Assembly (NCBI GenBank): GCA_021154065.1
Contig: JAJKJG010000066.1
Span: forward strand, 1-9,070
Reading direction: 5' to 3'
DNA from: Methylobacterium sp.
GTDB taxonomy: Bacteria; Pseudomonadota; Alphaproteobacteria; Rhizobiales; Beijerinckiaceae
Length of the DNA stretch: 9,070 nucleotides
In this document: piece after piece, positions 2,713 through 9,070 of the stretch
How the letters are laid out: the number at the start of each line of letters is the position of its first letter
How positions within the stretch are numbered: position 1 is the first letter of the stretch
Made by a program: the position numbers and the translations under genes
Notes under the pieces: model-generated
Databases searched by the model: none
The model's input: only the letters and a program-made list of their open reading frames with translations
Told to the model about the DNA's origin: nothing

Positions 2713-3483
2713 TCACAGCGTCGACACGAGGTGCCCGCCGTCGACCGGGATCGTCGCGCCGGTCATCCAGCGCGAGGCGTCCGAACAGAGGAGCAGGAAG
2801 GCGCCGTCGAGGTCCTCCGGTTGTCCCAGCCGGCGCATCGGGATGCGCTTCAGCATCGCCTGGCCGTGCTCGGTCGCAAAGAACCCGGCGTTGATGTCGG
2901 TCGCGATGTAGCCCGGTGCGAGCGCGTTGACGCGGATGCCGTAGCGCGCCCATTCGAGCGCGTGCGCCTCAGTCATCTGCACGACGCCGGCCTTCGAGAC
3001 CGCGTAGGCCGCCGTGCCGCCCGAAACCCGGAAGCCGAGGATCGAGGCGATGTTGACGATCGCGCCGCTGCGCTTGGCCTGGCGCCAGCGCTCGGCCGCC
3101 GCGACCGACATGAGCCAGACGCCGCGCAGGTTCGTCGCGACGACGCGGTCGAAGGCCTCCGGCGCGGTTTCGAGCGCGGCGCCGCCGTCGGCGATGCCGG
3201 CGTTGTTGACGAGGACGTCGAGAGGCCCGATCGCCGCCTCGGCGGCGGCAAGCGCCCGCGAGACGGAGCTCTCGTCGGCGACGTCGAGATCGACTGCGAC
3301 CGATTTCTCGGCGCCGGCGGCGTCGAGCTCGCGCCGGAGGGCGTCGAGCCGCTCGCGCCGGCGCGCGCCGATCGCGACCGCGGCGCCGCAGCCCGCAAGG
3401 ACGCGCGCGAAATGGGCGCCGAGCCCGCTCGACGCGCCGGTGACGAAGACGCGCTTGCCTCGGATGCCGGCTGCCAGATCCAT
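2713..3483 (-). CDS. SDR family NAD(P)-dependent oxidoreductase
   Basis: A 256-residue classical short-chain dehydrogenase/reductase with every hallmark. TGASSGLG (residues 15-22) binds the dinucleotide and NNAG is at 93-96. The catalytic tetrad is Asn118, Ser147 (after VNIA), Tyr160 and Lys164 (Y-AVS-K). PGYIATD (190-196) and the C-terminal PVDGG (247-250 region) are typical. Arginines at 41-43, just after the second beta strand (GARRRER), suggest NADP(H) preference, which is inference. The substrate cannot be read from sequence; 3-oxoacyl-reductase-like and sugar-alcohol or acid dehydrogenases share this pattern. The gene starts 22 bases after the cyclase stop, with GAGGGG at a suitable distance before the ATG, so it is probably the last gene of the ABC-cNMP-cyclase operon. 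Its other neighbours are tetronate-catabolism genes, so an alternative role in oxidising a four-carbon acid is possible. Only a flanking repeat separates it from otnK. Confidence 0.9.
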   Translation of the reverse strand: MDLAAGIRGKRVFVTGASSGLGAHFARVLAGCGAAVAIGARRRERLDALRRELDAAGAEKSVAVDLDVADESSVSRALAAAEAAIGPLDVLVNNAGIADGGAALETAPEAFDRVVATNLRGVWLMSVAAAERWRQAKRSGAIVNIASILGFRVSGGTAAYAVSKAGVVQMTEAHALEWARYGIRVNALAPGYIATDINAGFFATEHGQAMLKRIPMRRLGQPEDLDGAFLLLCSDASRWMTGATIPVDGGHLVSTL

Positions 3484-3505: not shown

Positions 3506-5188
3506 TCACGCCGCCTCGACTTCGGCCTCACGTTCCGTCAGCGCGCCGACGGCCGTCGCGACGTGGACGGTCAGCATCTCGCCCCTGCCGCGCACCGAGA
3601 TCTCGTGGATCTCGGCGCCCTCGATCGCAAGCCCCGCGGCGCGCACCGTCGCGTCCGAGACGACGAGGACGGATCCGAATTCCTTGTTGAGGCTCTCCAG
3701 GCGGCTTGCGGTGTTCACGGTGTCGCCGAGCGCGGTCAGGCTCGCCGAGCGCTCGGCGCCGACGCGGCCGAGCACGGCCGGGCCCATATGCAGCCCGATC
3801 CCCATGCGCAGACCCTCGCCGAGGGTGGCGTCGAACTCCTTGTTCAGCCGCTCGAGCGCCGCGAACATGTCGCGCGCGGCGTAGAGAGCGGCACGGCTGC
3901 CGGCGCCCCGCGCCGCCGACACGCCGAACAGCGCCATGATGCCGTCGCCCAAGAACTTGTCGACCTCGCCGCCATGGCGCTCGATCGCCTCGCTCATGAC
4001 CTCGAAATAGCGGTTCAGGAGGAACACCGAGTCATACGGGTAGAGCCGTTCCGCCAACGTCGTGAAGCCGCGCAGGTCCGAGAACATCACCGTGATCCGC
4101 CGCTCGACGCCCCAGCGGTACATGTCGCGGCCGGCGACCGGCTCGGCGTCGTGAAGCGGGATCAGCGGGCGCACTTTCAGGGCGTGGTCCGGCCGGATCT
4201 GGCAGGCGAGCCGCACGCCCTCCGGAGCGTGGATGCGCGTCAGCGCCGCCGCTTCGGCCCGGTTCGGCAGCGCGAGCCGGTCCTCGCCCTCGGTGACGAG
4301 CACCCGGCAGGTCGTGCAGCGGCCGCGCCCGCCGCAGACCGACGCATGCGGAACGCCGGCCGCGCGGCTGATTTCGAGAAGCGTCGCCCCCGGCGCGCCG
4401 CGGACGGTGCGCCCCGGATAGGTGATCGCCGGGCCGCGGGTGAACCAGTCGCGCACCCGCATCGCGACGAGCGCCACGGCGGCGGCGCCGAACACGAACC
4501 AGACGCCCATCTTCACCCGGTCGATGAGCGGTCCGCCCTTCTCGAACACGAAATCCGGGACGGTCGGCGGGTTCGCCATCAGGGCGAGCCGGCGCGCACC
4601 CTCCATCCAGCCGGTCAAGGCGACGGTCGGGATCATCACCGCCAGGACCAGAAGCAGCGGGCTCCAGCGCTCGTACCAGGCCTTGGTGCGGAGCCAGAAA
4701 TGCAGGCCGATGACGGCGTGCAGCCACACCACGACGAGCAGGAACGATTGGCTGAAGGCGAGGCCGGGCCAGAGCAGGCTCAACAGCCGGCCATAGGTGT
4801 CGTCGAAACCGTAGAGGCTCGCGAGGCCGCGGGTCGCCGCCACATGGGCGGCGGCGAGGAACGGGATCGACAGGCCGAGCACGATCTGAGCCACCTCCCA
4901 GGGCGCGAGGCGCCAGGTGCGGCGAAGGATCAGCTTCCACAGCGCGAGGCCGACGTGGAGCGCAAGCGCGCCGTAGAGGGCGATCGTGCCCGGCCAGGAG
5001 CGCCAGATCACGCGGCGCACCGCCTGCACCTCCTCCATCGTCTCGACGGAGATGTGGCCGAGCGCGTGGTTGAGGAAATGCGTCAGCGCGAACGTGAAAA
5101 GAACGAGCCCGGTGACGAGCCGCCAGGTCTGCGCATCGCGCAGGCGCGGGTCGCGCAGCCGGCGCGCGAGCCGGGCGGCGGATGCCAC
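3506..5188 (-). CDS. cyaC: Membrane class III adenylate cyclase with histidine-rich six-helix anchor and 2Fe-2S ferredoxin domain (CyaC-like)
   Basis: 560 residues in three parts. Residues about 22-250 form six hydrophobic helices (roughly 22-42, 66-88, 98-118, 141-165, 176-192, 226-246) with candidate heme-ligand histidines: H37/H41/H45 in helix 1, H78 in helix 2, H115 in helix 3, and H157/H163 in helix 4. Residues about 254-345 are a 2Fe-2S ferredoxin with C285, C291, C294 and C329 (Cx5Cx2C, then a distant Cys). Residues about 363-545 are the cyclase: metal-binding Asp371 (FSDLRGF) and Asp415 (KFLGDG), adenine-selecting Lys411, Thr485 at the second purine-selecting site as in class IIIb enzymes, and transition-state Asn492 and Arg496 (TVNTASR). 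All catalytic residues are present, so cAMP synthesis is likely. Sinorhizobium meliloti CyaC, as I recall, has the same layout (diheme-B anchor, binuclear Fe-S cluster) and responds to quinone redox state. The start is GTG, chosen for its strong upstream Shine-Dalgarno. It sits 16 bases after the cNMP-binding gene. Confidence 0.92.
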   Translation of the reverse strand: MASAARLARRLRDPRLRDAQTWRLVTGLVLFTFALTHFLNHALGHISVETMEEVQAVRRVIWRSWPGTIALYGALALHVGLALWKLILRRTWRLAPWEVAQIVLGLSIPFLAAAHVAATRGLASLYGFDDTYGRLLSLLWPGLAFSQSFLLVVVWLHAVIGLHFWLRTKAWYERWSPLLLVLAVMIPTVALTGWMEGARRLALMANPPTVPDFVFEKGGPLIDRVKMGVWFVFGAAAVALVAMRVRDWFTRGPAITYPGRTVRGAPGATLLEISRAAGVPHASVCGGRGRCTTCRVLVTEGEDRLALPNRAEAAALTRIHAPEGVRLACQIRPDHALKVRPLIPLHDAEPVAGRDMYRWGVERRITVMFSDLRGFTTLAERLYPYDSVFLLNRYFEVMSEAIERHGGEVDKFLGDGIMALFGVSAARGAGSRAALYAARDMFAALERLNKEFDATLGEGLRMGIGLHMGPAVLGRVGAERSASLTALGDTVNTASRLESLNKEFGSVLVVSDATVRAAGLAIEGAEIHEISVRGRGEMLTVHVATAVGALTEREAEVEAA

Positions 5189-5204: not shown

Positions 5205-5651
5205 TCAGCTGCGCGATTGCCGGGCGAGCTGCGTGTTCATCTTCTCGAGGCGCGAGGCGAGCTCGCGCATCACGGCGATCGACATCTGCGGGAATTGCGT
5301 CAGGAGCTCCAGGAACACCCGCTTGTCGATGCGCAGCGCGGTCGTCGGCGCCGCCGCGACGATGGTCGCCGAGCGCGGGCTGTCCGAGAGGATGCCCATC
5401 TCGCCGACGATCGCGTTCTGGCCGAGCTCGGCGACCTTGATGTCGCCGCCGGGCGAATCGATCGTCACGTCGGCCTTGCCCTGCAGGACGACGTAGGCGG
5501 CGTCGGCGGCGTCGCCCTGTTGGAAGAACTTCTGCCCCTCGGCGAAATTCACCCGCTCGCTGGTGAAGGCGAGCAGCTTCAGGCGGGCCGGATCGATGTC
5601 GCGGAACATCGGCACCTGCCGCAGCGACTGAACCTCGGTTTCCAATGTCAT
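5205..5651 (-). CDS. Stand-alone cyclic nucleotide-binding domain protein
   Basis: A 148-residue protein that is almost entirely one CAP/CRP-type cyclic-nucleotide-binding beta-roll. It opens with a helix and VPMFRDIDPARLKLLA (residues 13-28). It continues through the FAEGQKFFQQGD turn (36-47) and reaches the phosphate-binding cassette: Gly83-Glu84, then PRSAT at 92-96 with Arg93 positioned for the cyclic phosphate. The final helix (about 120-146) is charged and could pair with a partner. There is no helix-turn-helix, kinase or channel domain, so it is an adaptor or regulatory subunit rather than a transcription factor. Its ATG overlaps the ABC-gene stop by four bases (ATGA), a sign of translational coupling. 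It directly precedes the adenylate cyclase, so cAMP made by that cyclase is the obvious ligand (inference). The target is probably the ABC-like protein encoded immediately upstream. Confidence 0.9.
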   Translation of the reverse strand: MTLETEVQSLRQVPMFRDIDPARLKLLAFTSERVNFAEGQKFFQQGDAADAAYVVLQGKADVTIDSPGGDIKVAELGQNAIVGEMGILSDSPRSATIVAAAPTTALRIDKRVFLELLTQFPQMSIAVMRELASRLEKMNTQLARQSRS

Positions 5652-8422
5652 GCGACGCCTCCCGCAACGCGCTTGCCGAGCGGCTCGACGGTCTCGGCTT
5701 CCTCTTCGGTGGATGGGGACTCTTCGGTGGATGGGGGCTCTTCGGGGGATGAGGATCTCGGGCCCGAGGCCGTCGCCTCGAGGCTCGCCTTGCCCTTCTG
5801 GAACCGGATCACGGCGTCGAGCCCTTCAATCTCGCGCTCGTTCGGCAGGACCGTGAACAGGCTGCGTCCGTCCGTGACCTGGATCAGGAGCGTCAGCAGC
5901 TGGCGCTTCTGCGTCTCGCCGAAGGGCGCGAGCGCGCCGTCGACAACCATGATGTCCGGCCGCTTCACGAGGCAGCGCACGAGGTTGACGCTTGCCCGCT
6001 GCTGCGCGGTCAAGAGCCGCCCGGCCGGCCCGACCTGATGCGACAGCCCGACCCGCTCGACCCCCGGCCGCAGGCCGAGCTCGTCGACGACGGCGGTGAT
6101 CGCCTCCGTGACCCGCGCCTGCGCGTTGGCGGCGCTATGATTGACCCGGCCGAAGAGGAGGTTGTCCTTGAGGGGCGCTGCGGCGCAGACCTTCCCGGCG
6201 TCGTAGAACTCGACGCCGGGATCGGGCTCGCGCTCGAGCCGCTCGCGCACGGCGCGGCGAGCCTTGACGAGGCGAGCCTCGACCTCCTCGTCGAGAAGGC
6301 CGAGGCGATGGCGCGGCTCGATATAGGCGAGCGGCAGGGCCAGGAACCGCGTCAGGTCGTTGCCCCTGAAGCCCTCGCCGTTGCGGCGCGCCCGCCGGCG
6401 GATGATGGCCTCGTACTCGGGAAGCTCGTCGGCGGCGACGAACGAGAACTGCTCGAACAGCGGATGTCCGGGCGGCAGGCCGCGGAAGATCTCGACCATC
6501 GTCTCGGCGATCTGCGCGCCCATGGCGGCGAGCTCCTCGGCGATGCCCTCGGCCTTCAGCGCCTCGCGGAACGGGCCGTGCTCGGCAAGCGCGCGCCCGA
6601 TCAGCGCCCGCGAGGTCGGGACGCCGAACAGGAGATTTTCGCCGATCGTCGCCTGGTGGTTGTAGCGCTCGGCATCAAACGGCTCGACGAGCTCGGCCAT
6701 CCCTGAGGCCGCCAGCCGCTCGCGCAGGAGGTTTCTCGCCTCGATCAGCCGGCCCGCGAGCTCCGGATGCTTCTCGGGGTCGACCATGCCGGAAAGGCCG
6801 AAGCGATAGATGTCCTCCTTGAGGCCGATCTTGTCGAGGAGATCGATGAGGATGCGATCGAGCTCGTCCTCGTCGGCGGCGCCGGCAATCGCGCAGTCGA
6901 TCCAGGGCGCCTTGATCGCCTCGACCGGATTGCCGGTGCGCTTCGCCTCGGCGATCCGGCGCATCGTCTCGCTCGGATCCTCGTCGGGGTCGCCGAGCGG
7001 GTCGTGCCGGAGCCCGTAGACCAGATTGTCGCGAATCGTCCCCGGAAACAGGATCGGCTCGACGCCGGCATAGGCGATATGGCGTCCGGCCGCGCCTTTC
7101 GGGAGGTCGGCAAGATTGCGCTCGCCGACCAAGACCTCGCCGGCGTAGTCGCCGCTGCGATGCCCGATGATGCGGGCGAAGGCGCCGGCGGCCGGACCGC
7201 CGTCGCCGACGATGCCGACATGGGCCGGCAGCGGACAGGTCAACGAGACGCCGTCGATCACCGCTCCGCCATGCGGGTCCATGACGGTCAGCCCCTTGAC
7301 CACGAGCGGGCCGGCGAGCGGCTCGTCCTCGCCTGCCGGAGCGTCCTCGTCGGGCGCCGGCAGCAGCCGCTCCGGCGCGAAGTGCTGGACGACCTGATCG
7401 TATTTGACCTGGACGTCGAGCCGCTGCTGGTCCCAGTCGATCAGCTCCTTCAGCGGCGGCGGCAGCTCCCGATAGGCGGCGATGACGGCGACGAGCTGGC
7501 CGATGTCGAGGCTGCCGCGAAGGGCCAGGTAGCCGCCGATCGAGTAGAAGAAGAACGGCGTCATCTGGGCCAGAAGATTGTTCAGGAACTTGACCATGAA
7601 CTTCCGCTTGTAGATGCGGAAGCGCAGGTCGAAGAGCTCGAAGAGGCGGTGGCCGATCTCGGCCCGCTCCCATTTGTCGGTGTTGTGGACGTGGACGGCC
7701 TCCATGCCGTCGACGACCTCGCCGACCCGCCCGGCGAGGCGGCGGGAGGCGAGCTGGCGCTGCTTTCCGAGCTTCAGGAGCTCCCGGCGCAGCCGCGGGA
7801 TGATGGTGAACTGGATGCTGACCACGCCGGCCGCCATCAGGCCGAGCCAGAAATTCTGGACCATGATGAAGATGAGGGCGGTCGCGGCCTGCGTGCCGAG
7901 AAAGGCCGGCAGGATGAACGCGTCGCCGATGAAGCCGCCGATCGGCTCGACCTCGTCCTTGACGATGGTCGCGGTCTCGGAGGACTTCACGTTGCGAAGC
8001 GCATCCGGCGTGAACCGCAGAACCAGCGCGAACAGGTCGAAGCGCATCCGGCGCAGCATGCGCTCGCCGAGCGCGCCCTTGGCGACGTTGATCCAGTACT
8101 TGAAGACTCCGTTGATGAGCACGAAGAACAGGAACAGCCCCGACAAGCCGTACAGCAGCGTCAGGCGATCGACCTGGAAGCCCCCGAAGATGCTGACATG
8201 GGCGCCGCCGAGCCAATCCGGCAACCCGAGGGAGAGCTGGAGGAACGGCGCGGTCTCGTTGCCTTGGGCGAAGGATTTGCCCTGGATCGCCTCATTGACG
8301 ATCCGTCGCGGCAGGTCGAGCGAGGCGAAATAGAACGGCAACGAAGCCAGAACGACCGCGAAAACAATCAGCTGGTCGCGCTTCGAATGCCGCCAGATGT
8401 ACCGGAAAAGGCTTTTTTCCAT
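5648..8422 (-). CDS. ABC-exporter-like membrane protein with catalytically degenerate, internally duplicated nucleotide-binding region
   Basis: 924 residues, uninterrupted. Residues 1-345 resemble a type-1 exporter transmembrane domain: hydrophobic segments near 17-35, 87-112, 164-208 and 283-320, with coupling-helix-like basic stretches. After an acidic linker (about 350-370) an ABC domain starts (GPLVVKGLTV at 371). Its motifs are degenerate. The Walker A position reads GIVGDGGPAAGAFAR (403-417) with no Lys-Ser/Thr. The Q-loop position reads AYAGVEPILFPGT, without Gln. The signature reads LLTAQQR (803-809). Walker B reads DIMVVDGALAPFG (823-835), with Gly in place of the catalytic Glu. The H-loop region (TVLPNER, 857-863) lacks His. 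Between Q-loop and signature lie about 340 residues, against roughly 60 in ordinary exporters. They contain three xNLxxG-type motifs: DNLVYG 465-470, ENLLFG 595-600 and DNLLFG 753-758. The C-terminus is a repetitive acidic tail. ATP hydrolysis by this chain seems impossible. Transport, scaffolding or heterodimer roles remain open. It is probably the first gene of the operon. Confidence 0.85.
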   Translation of the reverse strand: MEKSLFRYIWRHSKRDQLIVFAVVLASLPFYFASLDLPRRIVNEAIQGKSFAQGNETAPFLQLSLGLPDWLGGAHVSIFGGFQVDRLTLLYGLSGLFLFFVLINGVFKYWINVAKGALGERMLRRMRFDLFALVLRFTPDALRNVKSSETATIVKDEVEPIGGFIGDAFILPAFLGTQAATALIFIMVQNFWLGLMAAGVVSIQFTIIPRLRRELLKLGKQRQLASRRLAGRVGEVVDGMEAVHVHNTDKWERAEIGHRLFELFDLRFRIYKRKFMVKFLNNLLAQMTPFFFYSIGGYLALRGSLDIGQLVAVIAAYRELPPPLKELIDWDQQRLDVQVKYDQVVQHFAPERLLPAPDEDAPAGEDEPLAGPLVVKGLTVMDPHGGAVIDGVSLTCPLPAHVGIVGDGGPAAGAFARIIGHRSGDYAGEVLVGERNLADLPKGAAGRHIAYAGVEPILFPGTIRDNLVYGLRHDPLGDPDEDPSETMRRIAEAKRTGNPVEAIKAPWIDCAIAGAADEDELDRILIDLLDKIGLKEDIYRFGLSGMVDPEKHPELAGRLIEARNLLRERLAASGMAELVEPFDAERYNHQATIGENLLFGVPTSRALIGRALAEHGPFREALKAEGIAEELAAMGAQIAETMVEIFRGLPPGHPLFEQFSFVAADELPEYEAIIRRRARRNGEGFRGNDLTRFLALPLAYIEPRHRLGLLDEEVEARLVKARRAVRERLEREPDPGVEFYDAGKVCAAAPLKDNLLFGRVNHSAANAQARVTEAITAVVDELGLRPGVERVGLSHQVGPAGRLLTAQQRASVNLVRCLVKRPDIMVVDGALAPFGETQKRQLLTLLIQVTDGRSLFTVLPNEREIEGLDAVIRFQKGKASLEATASGPRSSSPEEPPSTEESPSTEEEAETVEPLGKRVAGGVA
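5658..5663 (-). promoter_or_regulatory. Ribosome binding site of the cNMP-binding gene, inside the ABC gene
   Basis: The minus strand reads GGGAGG six bases before the ATG at 5651-5649, within the final codons of the ABC-like gene. With the four-base ATGA overlap it indicates coupled translation of the two proteins and supports this start codon. Confidence 0.7.
5702..5755. repeat. Three tandem 18-base repeats in the ABC-gene tail
   Basis: Three consecutive 18-base units (5702-5719, 5720-5737, 5738-5755) each begin CTCTTCGG on the plus strand. The first two differ at one base; the third differs at a few. The unit length is a multiple of three, so the reading frame is kept. On the minus strand they encode SSPEEP, PSTEES and PSTEEE (residues about 891-908), an acidic Pro/Ser/Thr/Glu tail after the degenerate nucleotide-binding domain. 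Copy number is likely to vary between strains through slippage. Confidence 0.85.
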
Positions 8423-8504: not shown

Positions 8505-8558
8505 GGCGTCAACAAGAGCCCGCCGAACGGGCGCAGATTGGACGCGACGGATAGGGAT

Positions 8559-9070
8559 ATGCAAGCCTTCCCATTCGCGGCGGCGGGTCCGCCCTTCTCG
8601 CGCCAGTCGCTCGCGCGGGTGCTGATCTACAGCCACGACACCTTCGGCCTCGGGCATCTGCGGCGCTCGCGCGCGATCGCCAACGCGCTCGTCAGCGAGC
8701 GCCCCGGCGTCTCGGTCCTGATCATCTCGGGATCGCCGGTGATCGGCAATTTCGAGTTCGGCAGCGGCGTCGACTACGTGCGCATTCCCGGCGTCACCAA
8801 GCTCCCGGACGGCGACTACCGCAGCCTCAACCTCAACGTCTCGATCGACGACGCGACCGAGCTGCGGGAAACCATCATCCTGCAGACCGCCGAGAGCTTT
8901 CGGCCCGACCTGTTCATCGTCGACAAGGAGCCGACCGGCTTTCGCGGCGAGATCGTGCCGGCGCTCGAGCGCCTGCAGCAGCACGGCTGCCGGCTCGTGC
9001 TCGGAATCCGCGACGTCATGGACGAGCCGGCGCTGCTCGCCACCGAATGGGAGCGCAAGGGCGCGGTCGA
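8559..9070 (+). CDS. Predicted glycosyltransferase, GT-B type, N-terminal part (runs off the window)
   Basis: The first 170 codons of a gene with no stop before the right edge. It begins MQAFPFAAAG; the conserved part starts near residue 20 with RVLIYSHDTFGLGHLRRSRAIA. This contains the Gly-Leu-Gly-His loop typical of MurG-like GT-B glycosyltransferases, in the group of predicted glycosyltransferases often listed as COG4671. Further support comes from SVLIISGSP (52-60), DLFIVDKEPTGFRGE (117-131) and LGIRDVMDEP (148-157), an alternation of beta strands and loops as in a Rossmann-like N-terminal domain. The ATG has AGGG only two bases upstream (8553-8556), a short spacing, so the true start could differ by a few codons; the conserved core is unaffected. 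It is transcribed away from the ABC-like gene. The donor, the acceptor and the C-terminal nucleotide-sugar domain cannot be judged from this fragment. Confidence 0.85.
   Translation, partial: MQAFPFAAAGPPFSRQSLARVLIYSHDTFGLGHLRRSRAIANALVSERPGVSVLIISGSPVIGNFEFGSGVDYVRIPGVTKLPDGDYRSLNLNVSIDDATELRETIILQTAESFRPDLFIVDKEPTGFRGEIVPALERLQQHGCRLVLGIRDVMDEPALLATEWERKGAV

Follow-up and report, generated by a model that had tools for sequence, protein, structure and literature searches.

What remains of an ATP-binding cassette (ABC) exporter once every motif of its ATPase has been lost from an intact gene? The question is raised by a 9,070-nucleotide stretch of DNA from Methylobacterium sp. (assembly GCA_021154065.1, contig JAJKJG010000066.1; this whole stretch is called the window), which encodes such a protein, here termed pseudo-ABC. 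An earlier reading of the letters alone (the sequence-only reading) had described a single unbroken frame of 924 codons. This open reading frame (ORF) is intact, ends in a stop codon, and lies on the minus strand, which that reading did not state (Table 1). Judged by sequence, the protein is a member of a large proteobacterial family whose ATPase motifs are eroded in all the members that were examined. We put the probability at about 0.6 that it is a type I (B-type) ABC-exporter scaffold for which ATP is no longer the fuel and which is controlled through a cyclic-nucleotide-binding (cNMP) module. Instead of drawing power from ATP, it probably responds to a signal molecule that switches it.

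Motif columns were taken from an alignment of pseudo-ABC members with ordinary ABC exporters from three related genomes. At these columns the window protein has Ala412 and Gly413 in place of the Lys and Ser/Thr of Walker A, Val454 for the Gln of the Q-loop, LTAQQ as its signature, Asp828-Gly829 at the end of Walker B, and Pro860, followed by Asn861, at the H-loop position. All five substitutions quoted by the sequence-only reading (Walker A, Q-loop Val, LTAQQ, Asp-Gly, and the missing His) are present, and the alignment confirms their columns. In seven ordinary exporters these columns read K, S/T, Q, SGGQ, DE, and H; these were picked by a script requiring SGGQ and alone are an unfair control for the signature, and a second control of 12 exporters was taken without this filter. 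K, S/T, Q, D, E, and H occur in 12/12 of the latter, with the signature reading SGGQ in seven, SGGE in four, and SLGQ in one. A five-motif test with a stringent signature rule (S, first G, and Q required) is passed in full by 7 of the 12, and the other five fail on the signature alone.

At E 0.001, the membrane domain PF00664 is the only Pfam match of the pseudo-ABC protein (45.9 bits, cut-off 28); PF00005 is not recognised and no peptidase family is matched. Both parts of its nucleotide-binding domain (NBD) align to solved exporters with phmmer, and the predicted NBD superposes on that of ComA at 2.2 A (residues 367–886 aligned, only 225 residues used). Because of these alignments and this superposition, we consider that the likeness to exporters is not due to chance. 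The model suggests that a C-terminal NBD of the ABC fold is retained, in line with the earlier claim that the fold outlived its motifs. Unnoticed in that reading were the overlapping cNMP gene, the downstream cyclase, the divergent upstream glycosyltransferase, and a 287-residue insertion within the protein. The insertion, modelled as residues 472–762, has a mean pLDDT (predicted local distance difference test) of 90.4. It holds extra copies of the Q-loop/helical segment (units 2 and 3), which match each other with an hhalign probability of 98.3 (E 1.5e-14) and weak structural support.

Relatives were collected in three homologue searches, from each of which the best 120 were kept (of 4156 in the first, at E 1e-20; of 2685 from an Azospirillum relative; and of 5217 from protein P0237). 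A genome scan kept 80 of 546 confirmed relatives, and motif strings were obtained for 88 full-length loci including the window. Family matches occur in 132 of 385 sampled alphaproteobacterial genomes, or about a third. Dropping proteins that were at least 80% identical to a kept one or shorter than 830 amino acids (aa) reduced 328 proteins to 170 non-redundant members; 163 of these keep none of the five motifs, seven keep one, and none keeps two. The Walker A Lys is retained in 17 members and the H-loop His in none. Among the nearest 120 (the best 120 of 4156), the Lys column has Ala (114), Gly (4), or Pro (2), Walker B ends in Asp-Gly in 119 and is gapped in one, the H-loop column has Pro in 104 and His in none, and the Q-loop column, never Gln, is Val or Ile in 112. 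The degenerate residues, which the sequence-only reading proposed might be conserved as such, are largely shared within this nearest set and differ between clades. Canonical orthologues, which it had named as the sign of recent decay, were looked for and not seen: no member with an intact motif set turned up in the three homologue searches (best 120 each), the 80-locus scan, or a systematic 20-locus sample. Numerous database records call these genes ABC transporter ATP-binding protein, a name whose reference to ATP is probably mistaken.

In the least eroded clade (120 proteins, among the matches listed), 101 keep the Walker A Lys, 49 have Ser/Thr along with it, and 85 still have Gln in the Q-loop; the Walker B Asp is replaced by Asn in 119, Asp-Glu and the H-loop His occur in none, and each protein retains at most three motifs. 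In a rooted FastTree phylogeny, which leaves out proteins P0241–P0359, the family forms a single group (support 1.0) against the seven ordinary exporters. Its deepest split (supports 0.907 and 0.846) separates a clade without fused cNMP domains (91 members, 7 with Lys) from a mostly fused clade (76 of 79 fused, 10 with Lys). Since replacements differ between clades and Lys survives in both large clades, hydrolysis was probably lost early, in or before the family ancestor; the loss of nucleotide binding would have followed, becoming complete in the window lineage. Group medians for the ratio of nonsynonymous to synonymous substitution rates (dN/dS) over the dead NBD are 0.14–0.29, about 0.2, and all 80 loci of the genome scan have long intact frames. 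Given that the modelled NBD still has its fold, and given a dN/dS of about 0.2, the losses do not represent recent decay. Selection for a non-hydrolytic role, as proposed earlier, is supported by these medians and by the want of any intact-motif member among those seen.

The best clue to function is the cNMP module. In the window, the pseudo-ABC gene, the cNMP-binding gene, and a ferredoxin/cyclase gene follow one another on the minus strand. Among solved structures, the cNMP-binding protein matches PKA regulatory subunits, PKG subunits, CRP-type regulators, and the cNMP-gated channel SthK. Its cassette motif VGEMGILSDSPRSATI presumably binds phosphate. The cassette residues are retained in 66 partner proteins (Gly 66/66, Glu 66/66, Arg 65/66); the ATP motifs were thus lost while the cyclic-nucleotide motif stayed. 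By script, 66 of 92 loci have the cNMP gene immediately downstream in the same orientation, and L028 and L029 have it in addition as the end of an over-long ORF. It is adjacent in 68 and fused in two (L005, L006) of the 88 full-length loci. C-terminal cNMP fusions occur in 111 of the 328 proteins, 109 of them within the 120 proteins P0121–P0240 and none within P0001–P0120. The systematic sample took every sixth of the first 115 match rows of the 385-genome search (one being L110), leaving out weaker, often partial lower rows; there the gene is adjacent in 18 of 20 loci and fused in one. All 16 hand-picked loci have it (11 fused, 5 adjacent), and because these are biased to long frames, our conclusion rests on the 20-locus sample. 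No cNMP gene was found near ordinary exporters in 12 loci with flanks of about 1.5 kb.

Further arrangements were seen around this module. One clade (P0237 and P0241–P0359, some named Rhodospirillales) fuses the pseudo-ABC protein, the cNMP domain, and mostly a C-terminal GGDEF domain, and among the matches listed 98 of its 120 proteins exceed 1120 aa. The pattern used found a GGDEF-like motif in 0 of these 120, which suggests that the diguanylate cyclase domain has degenerated as well. At L119:8281-10668, the cNMP gene is followed immediately by a 795-aa ORF that has no Pfam match at E 0.001. Several Methylobacterium copies (L002, L042, L045, L047, L048, L050, L051, L055–L058, and L060) have neither a cNMP partner nor a glycosyltransferase match nearby; for ten of them the NBD dN/dS is 0.29, the highest among four groups.

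The transmembrane domain (TMD) is the best conserved part of the family: across the 170 members, conservation reaches 95% or more in 59 of its 323 columns, versus 20 of 519 columns for the NBD plus insertion. Residues E159-P160, N281-N282, and T288-P289 are family specific and not shared by the seven aligned ordinary exporters, in which the E157 column is mostly Asp. Relatives that consist of a TMD only were also found; the four that were aligned retain ExEP in all four and NN and TP in two. Because the TMD is the best conserved region and such relatives exist, we think that it is the working part and that the pseudo-NBD is a transmission and docking surface for cNMP control. Three TMD-only relatives without an NBD (L007:4773-6077, L008:4788-5987, and L009:4743-6005) are plasmid-borne in Phaeobacter, Thalassospira, and Dinoroseobacter, where the same clusters encode copper proteins and cytochromes (annotated cytochrome c in two and c-type cytochrome in the third). 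Rhizobium has another, of 324 aa, whose neighbours include a CBS-domain protein and universal stress proteins (L010:5001-5975).

In the mechanism that we propose, two pseudo-ABC copies would form the usual exporter-like dimer, and the cNMP-binding protein would dock on the enlarged pseudo-NBD, the surface that normally relays ATP-driven movement via coupling helices to the TMD. A cyclic nucleotide, plausibly cyclic AMP (cAMP) from the neighbouring cyclase, would take over from the ATP cycle in moving the TMD between states. The output of the TMD could be a ligand-controlled channel or facilitator, or a membrane switch on adjacent glycan machinery. We favour cAMP as the linked nucleotide because the cyclase domain of the window best matches solved adenylate cyclases. 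A more specific version is offered tentatively: the family might be a new class in which the ATP engine has been swapped for a cyclic-nucleotide switch, the triplicated Q-loop/helical segment docks the cNMP subunit or domain, and cAMP binding drives the TMD as a cAMP-gated conduit or lipid/glycan facilitator in many Proteobacteria.

Table 1. Features of the window and of the pseudo-ABC protein that it encodes
Feature	Position	Strand	Remarks
Class III nucleotide cyclase	3506..5188	-	560 aa; hydrophobic His-rich N-terminal part, 2Fe-2S ferredoxin domain, cyclase domain; PF00111 and PF00211
Cyclic-nucleotide-binding protein	5205..5651	-	148 aa; PF00027, E 5.1e-21; start overlaps stop of the ABC gene (ATGA)
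Phosphate-binding cassette VGEMGILSDSPRSATI of the cNMP-binding protein	5361..5408	-	Intact
Pseudo-ABC exporter gene	5648..8422	-	924 aa; coordinates include stop; one intact ORF; PF00664, relatives, model with mean pLDDT 83.7
Acidic/Ser-rich C-terminal tail, residues 887–924	5651..5764	-	Low confidence, pLDDT <50
H-loop remnant SLFTVLPNERE	5831..5863	-	Without His
Walker B remnant PDIMVVDGALAPF	5921..5959	-	Gly for catalytic Glu
Signature remnant GRLLTAQQRASVNLVR	5975..6022	-	
Unit 3 motif FYDAGKVCAAAPLKDNLLFG	6149..6208	-	Runs into signature helix
Insertion of 287 residues, residues 472–758	6149..7009	-	Between unit 1 and signature region
Unit 2 motif FDAERYNHQATIGENLLFG	6623..6679	-	Within insertion
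Q-loop region, unit 1 (AYAGVEPILFPGTIRDNLVYGL)	7010..7075	-	Val for Gln
Walker A remnant IVGDGGPAAGAFARI	7169..7213	-	No Lys, no Ser/Thr
Transmembrane domain, residues 1–345	7388..8422	-	Best conserved part; family motifs ExEP (157–160) and LNN...TPF (280–290)
Glycosyltransferase (GT1-like), divergent, upstream of pseudo-ABC gene	8538..9070	+	Incomplete at window edge; phmmer 169 bits against R. leguminosarum neighbour

The class III domain of the window cyclase (PF00211, 79.9 bits) has adenylate cyclases as its best matches among solved structures in the PDB; the protein also carries a ferredoxin domain (PF00111), and its hydrophobic His-rich N-terminal part was seen by eye. The sensor parts of nearby cyclases vary, with ferredoxin in the window and L033, CHASE2 in L115, and no further Pfam domain in L114. 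Glycosyltransferase matches (E 1e-5) occur in 66 of the 88 full-length loci, in 62 of them at 100 bits or more. Opp-type importer components are found in 45/88, with varying flanks, and in 0 of the 16 hand-picked loci, where flanks are shorter. A tandem-NBD Opp-type ATPase (L012:305-2194 and similar ORFs) lies near glycosyltransferases and the pseudo-ABC gene in 29 of the 88; it is present too beside the Azospirillum fusion, and other loci have genes for a substrate-binding protein or permease. Following the cyclase in the window, a 3-oxo-tetronate kinase (above the NCBIfam cut-off) and a 2-oxo-tetronate/hydroxypyruvate isomerase-like gene (under the cut-off) at 377-2554 and a short-chain dehydrogenase/reductase at 2713-3483 likely form a sugar-acid catabolic set. 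Both the cyclase and the cNMP-binding protein of the window match Pycsar models in PADLOC. The locus differs from Pycsar in that the ABC protein matches no PADLOC model and a minority of loci have a cyclase nearby; with matches confined to the cyclase and cNMP protein, Pycsar-like defence was not adopted.

Several observations weigh against a scaffold under cNMP control. A recount with hidden Markov models found no cNMP domain within 1 kb or fused in 18 of the 88 full-length loci; 17 of these carry the title Methylobacterium, and the other is from a Phreatobacter metagenome-assembled genome. One locus of the systematic sample also lacks it. The TMD may not depend on the module, because the TMD-only relatives found in copper clusters lack an NBD, and no cNMP neighbour was listed for them. 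Within 3.1 kb, 15 of the 88 loci have a class III cyclase-like ORF (two only on the opposite strand); 113 cyclase matches in eight genomes of about 38.8 Mb would put about two near the loci versus these 15, a figure that is only a guide as the loci are related. The less eroded clade may still bind nucleotide, with ATP as a non-hydrolysed ligand, because so many of its listed proteins retain the Walker A Lys. Replacing residues differ from clade to clade, and some family copies may be broken: in the 385-genome search, five listed matches have in-frame stops (G006, G117, G134, G213, and G345), and several further ones are split or partial. The clade differences and the stops would also suit a recent pseudogene or the random decay of an ordinary exporter, but with long intact frames in 80/80 scan loci, a dN/dS of about 0.2, and no canonical orthologue seen among the members examined, this account has almost no credibility and we reject it.

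An exporter body without an engine could also serve as a receptor or sensor that transports nothing, its TMD sensing a ligand or the state of the membrane (glycan intermediate, quinone, metal, or heme) and signalling inward via the pseudo-NBD to the cNMP module or cyclase. Highly conserved polar residues in the TMD, the location of TMD-only relatives with copper proteins and cytochromes, and the C-terminal GGDEF-type domain after the cNMP domain in one clade (P0237, P0262) favour such a role, the combination of these two domains being typical of signalling proteins. The exporter fold, however, suggests a translocation path, and the degenerate GGDEF domain offers no visible enzymatic output, which leaves the receptor unlikely but a serious contender. 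The frequency of glycosyltransferases and Opp-type components near the gene would fit a non-transporting assembly scaffold for either of them; we find this improbable, as the most conserved region is the TMD rather than a soluble part, and some loci and the TMD-only relatives show no such glycosyltransferase. Among the roles offered by the sequence-only reading (a pseudo-ABC scaffold, a regulated channel, or the inactive half of a heterodimer), the last is the least supported. Heterodimeric exporters in which one site has degenerated are well documented (PMC7756269), and related genomes have many canonical exporters; an active partner would be encoded elsewhere. Yet no other ORF above 450 aa scored more than 200 bits against the seven ordinary exporters in any of the 92 loci, the stretches that this search covered, and the Walker A and signature faces are both gone here, in contrast to degenerate sites that still hold ATP (PMC7756269). 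The heterodimer half was rejected as unlikely and has a slimmer chance still.

The cNMP-controlled scaffold shares its PF00664 TMD, NBD fold, and order of elements with the type I exporters MsbA, BmrA, ComA, and TM287/288; it differs in lacking all five motifs, in its repeat-bearing insertion, and in its cNMP module. CFTR and SUR are ABC-exporter scaffolds turned channel or regulator, and both still bind ATP; we know of no cNMP-binding partner for either. SUR chains occur among the structural matches of the window model. TIGR03896 describes cNMP proteins of bacteriocin-type transport that are likewise tied to an ABC exporter, but the cNMP protein of the window reaches 44.6 bits, far under the cut-off of 161.05, and the transport context is another. 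SthK-type cyclic-nucleotide-gated channels also combine a membrane protein with a cNMP-binding domain of matching sequence; their membrane domain is different, and gating of the window protein is a proposal. A literature-library search listed no paper on the pseudo-ABC family, and to our knowledge no other family of ABC-exporter fold lacks a working ATPase site and is mostly paired with a cNMP module.

Further parallels come from three published sources. TM287/288, TmrAB, and TAP have lost catalytic residues at one site under selection, and one canonical site remains while the degenerate site still holds ATP (PMC7756269); the window polypeptide lacks both site faces, and no partner half was found in 92 loci. 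HetC of Nostoc PCC 7120 also links ABC exporter architecture to a cNMP-type domain, which is N-terminal, needed for function, and binds guanosine tetraphosphate (ppGpp) in vitro; HetC also has a peptidase domain and cannot function without the catalytic residue of its ATPase (PMC10986499), whereas the window protein has no ATPase motifs and no peptidase family match (E 0.001). ABC scaffolds as channels or regulators, degenerate sites (PMC7756269), and an active exporter with a cNMP domain (PMC10986499) are thus already known. CyaC of Sinorhizobium meliloti is a membrane class III adenylate cyclase in which two hemes in a six-transmembrane part sense the quinone redox state (PMC10463352). The window cyclase is likened to it, by description, in its class III domain and hydrophobic His-rich N-terminal part and differs in its ferredoxin domain; that it works as a quinone-redox sensor like CyaC is a guess by analogy.

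ABC exporters are textbook ATP-driven pumps. The pseudo-ABC family retains the pump body, has lost the motor, and is mostly accompanied by a cyclic-nucleotide sensor, which makes it testable whether another ligand can drive an ABC fold. A homologue lies on pSymB of Sinorhizobium meliloti, which has 28 adenylate cyclases (PMC10463352). The family is a possible non-transcriptional target of bacterial cAMP signalling, for example in this organism.

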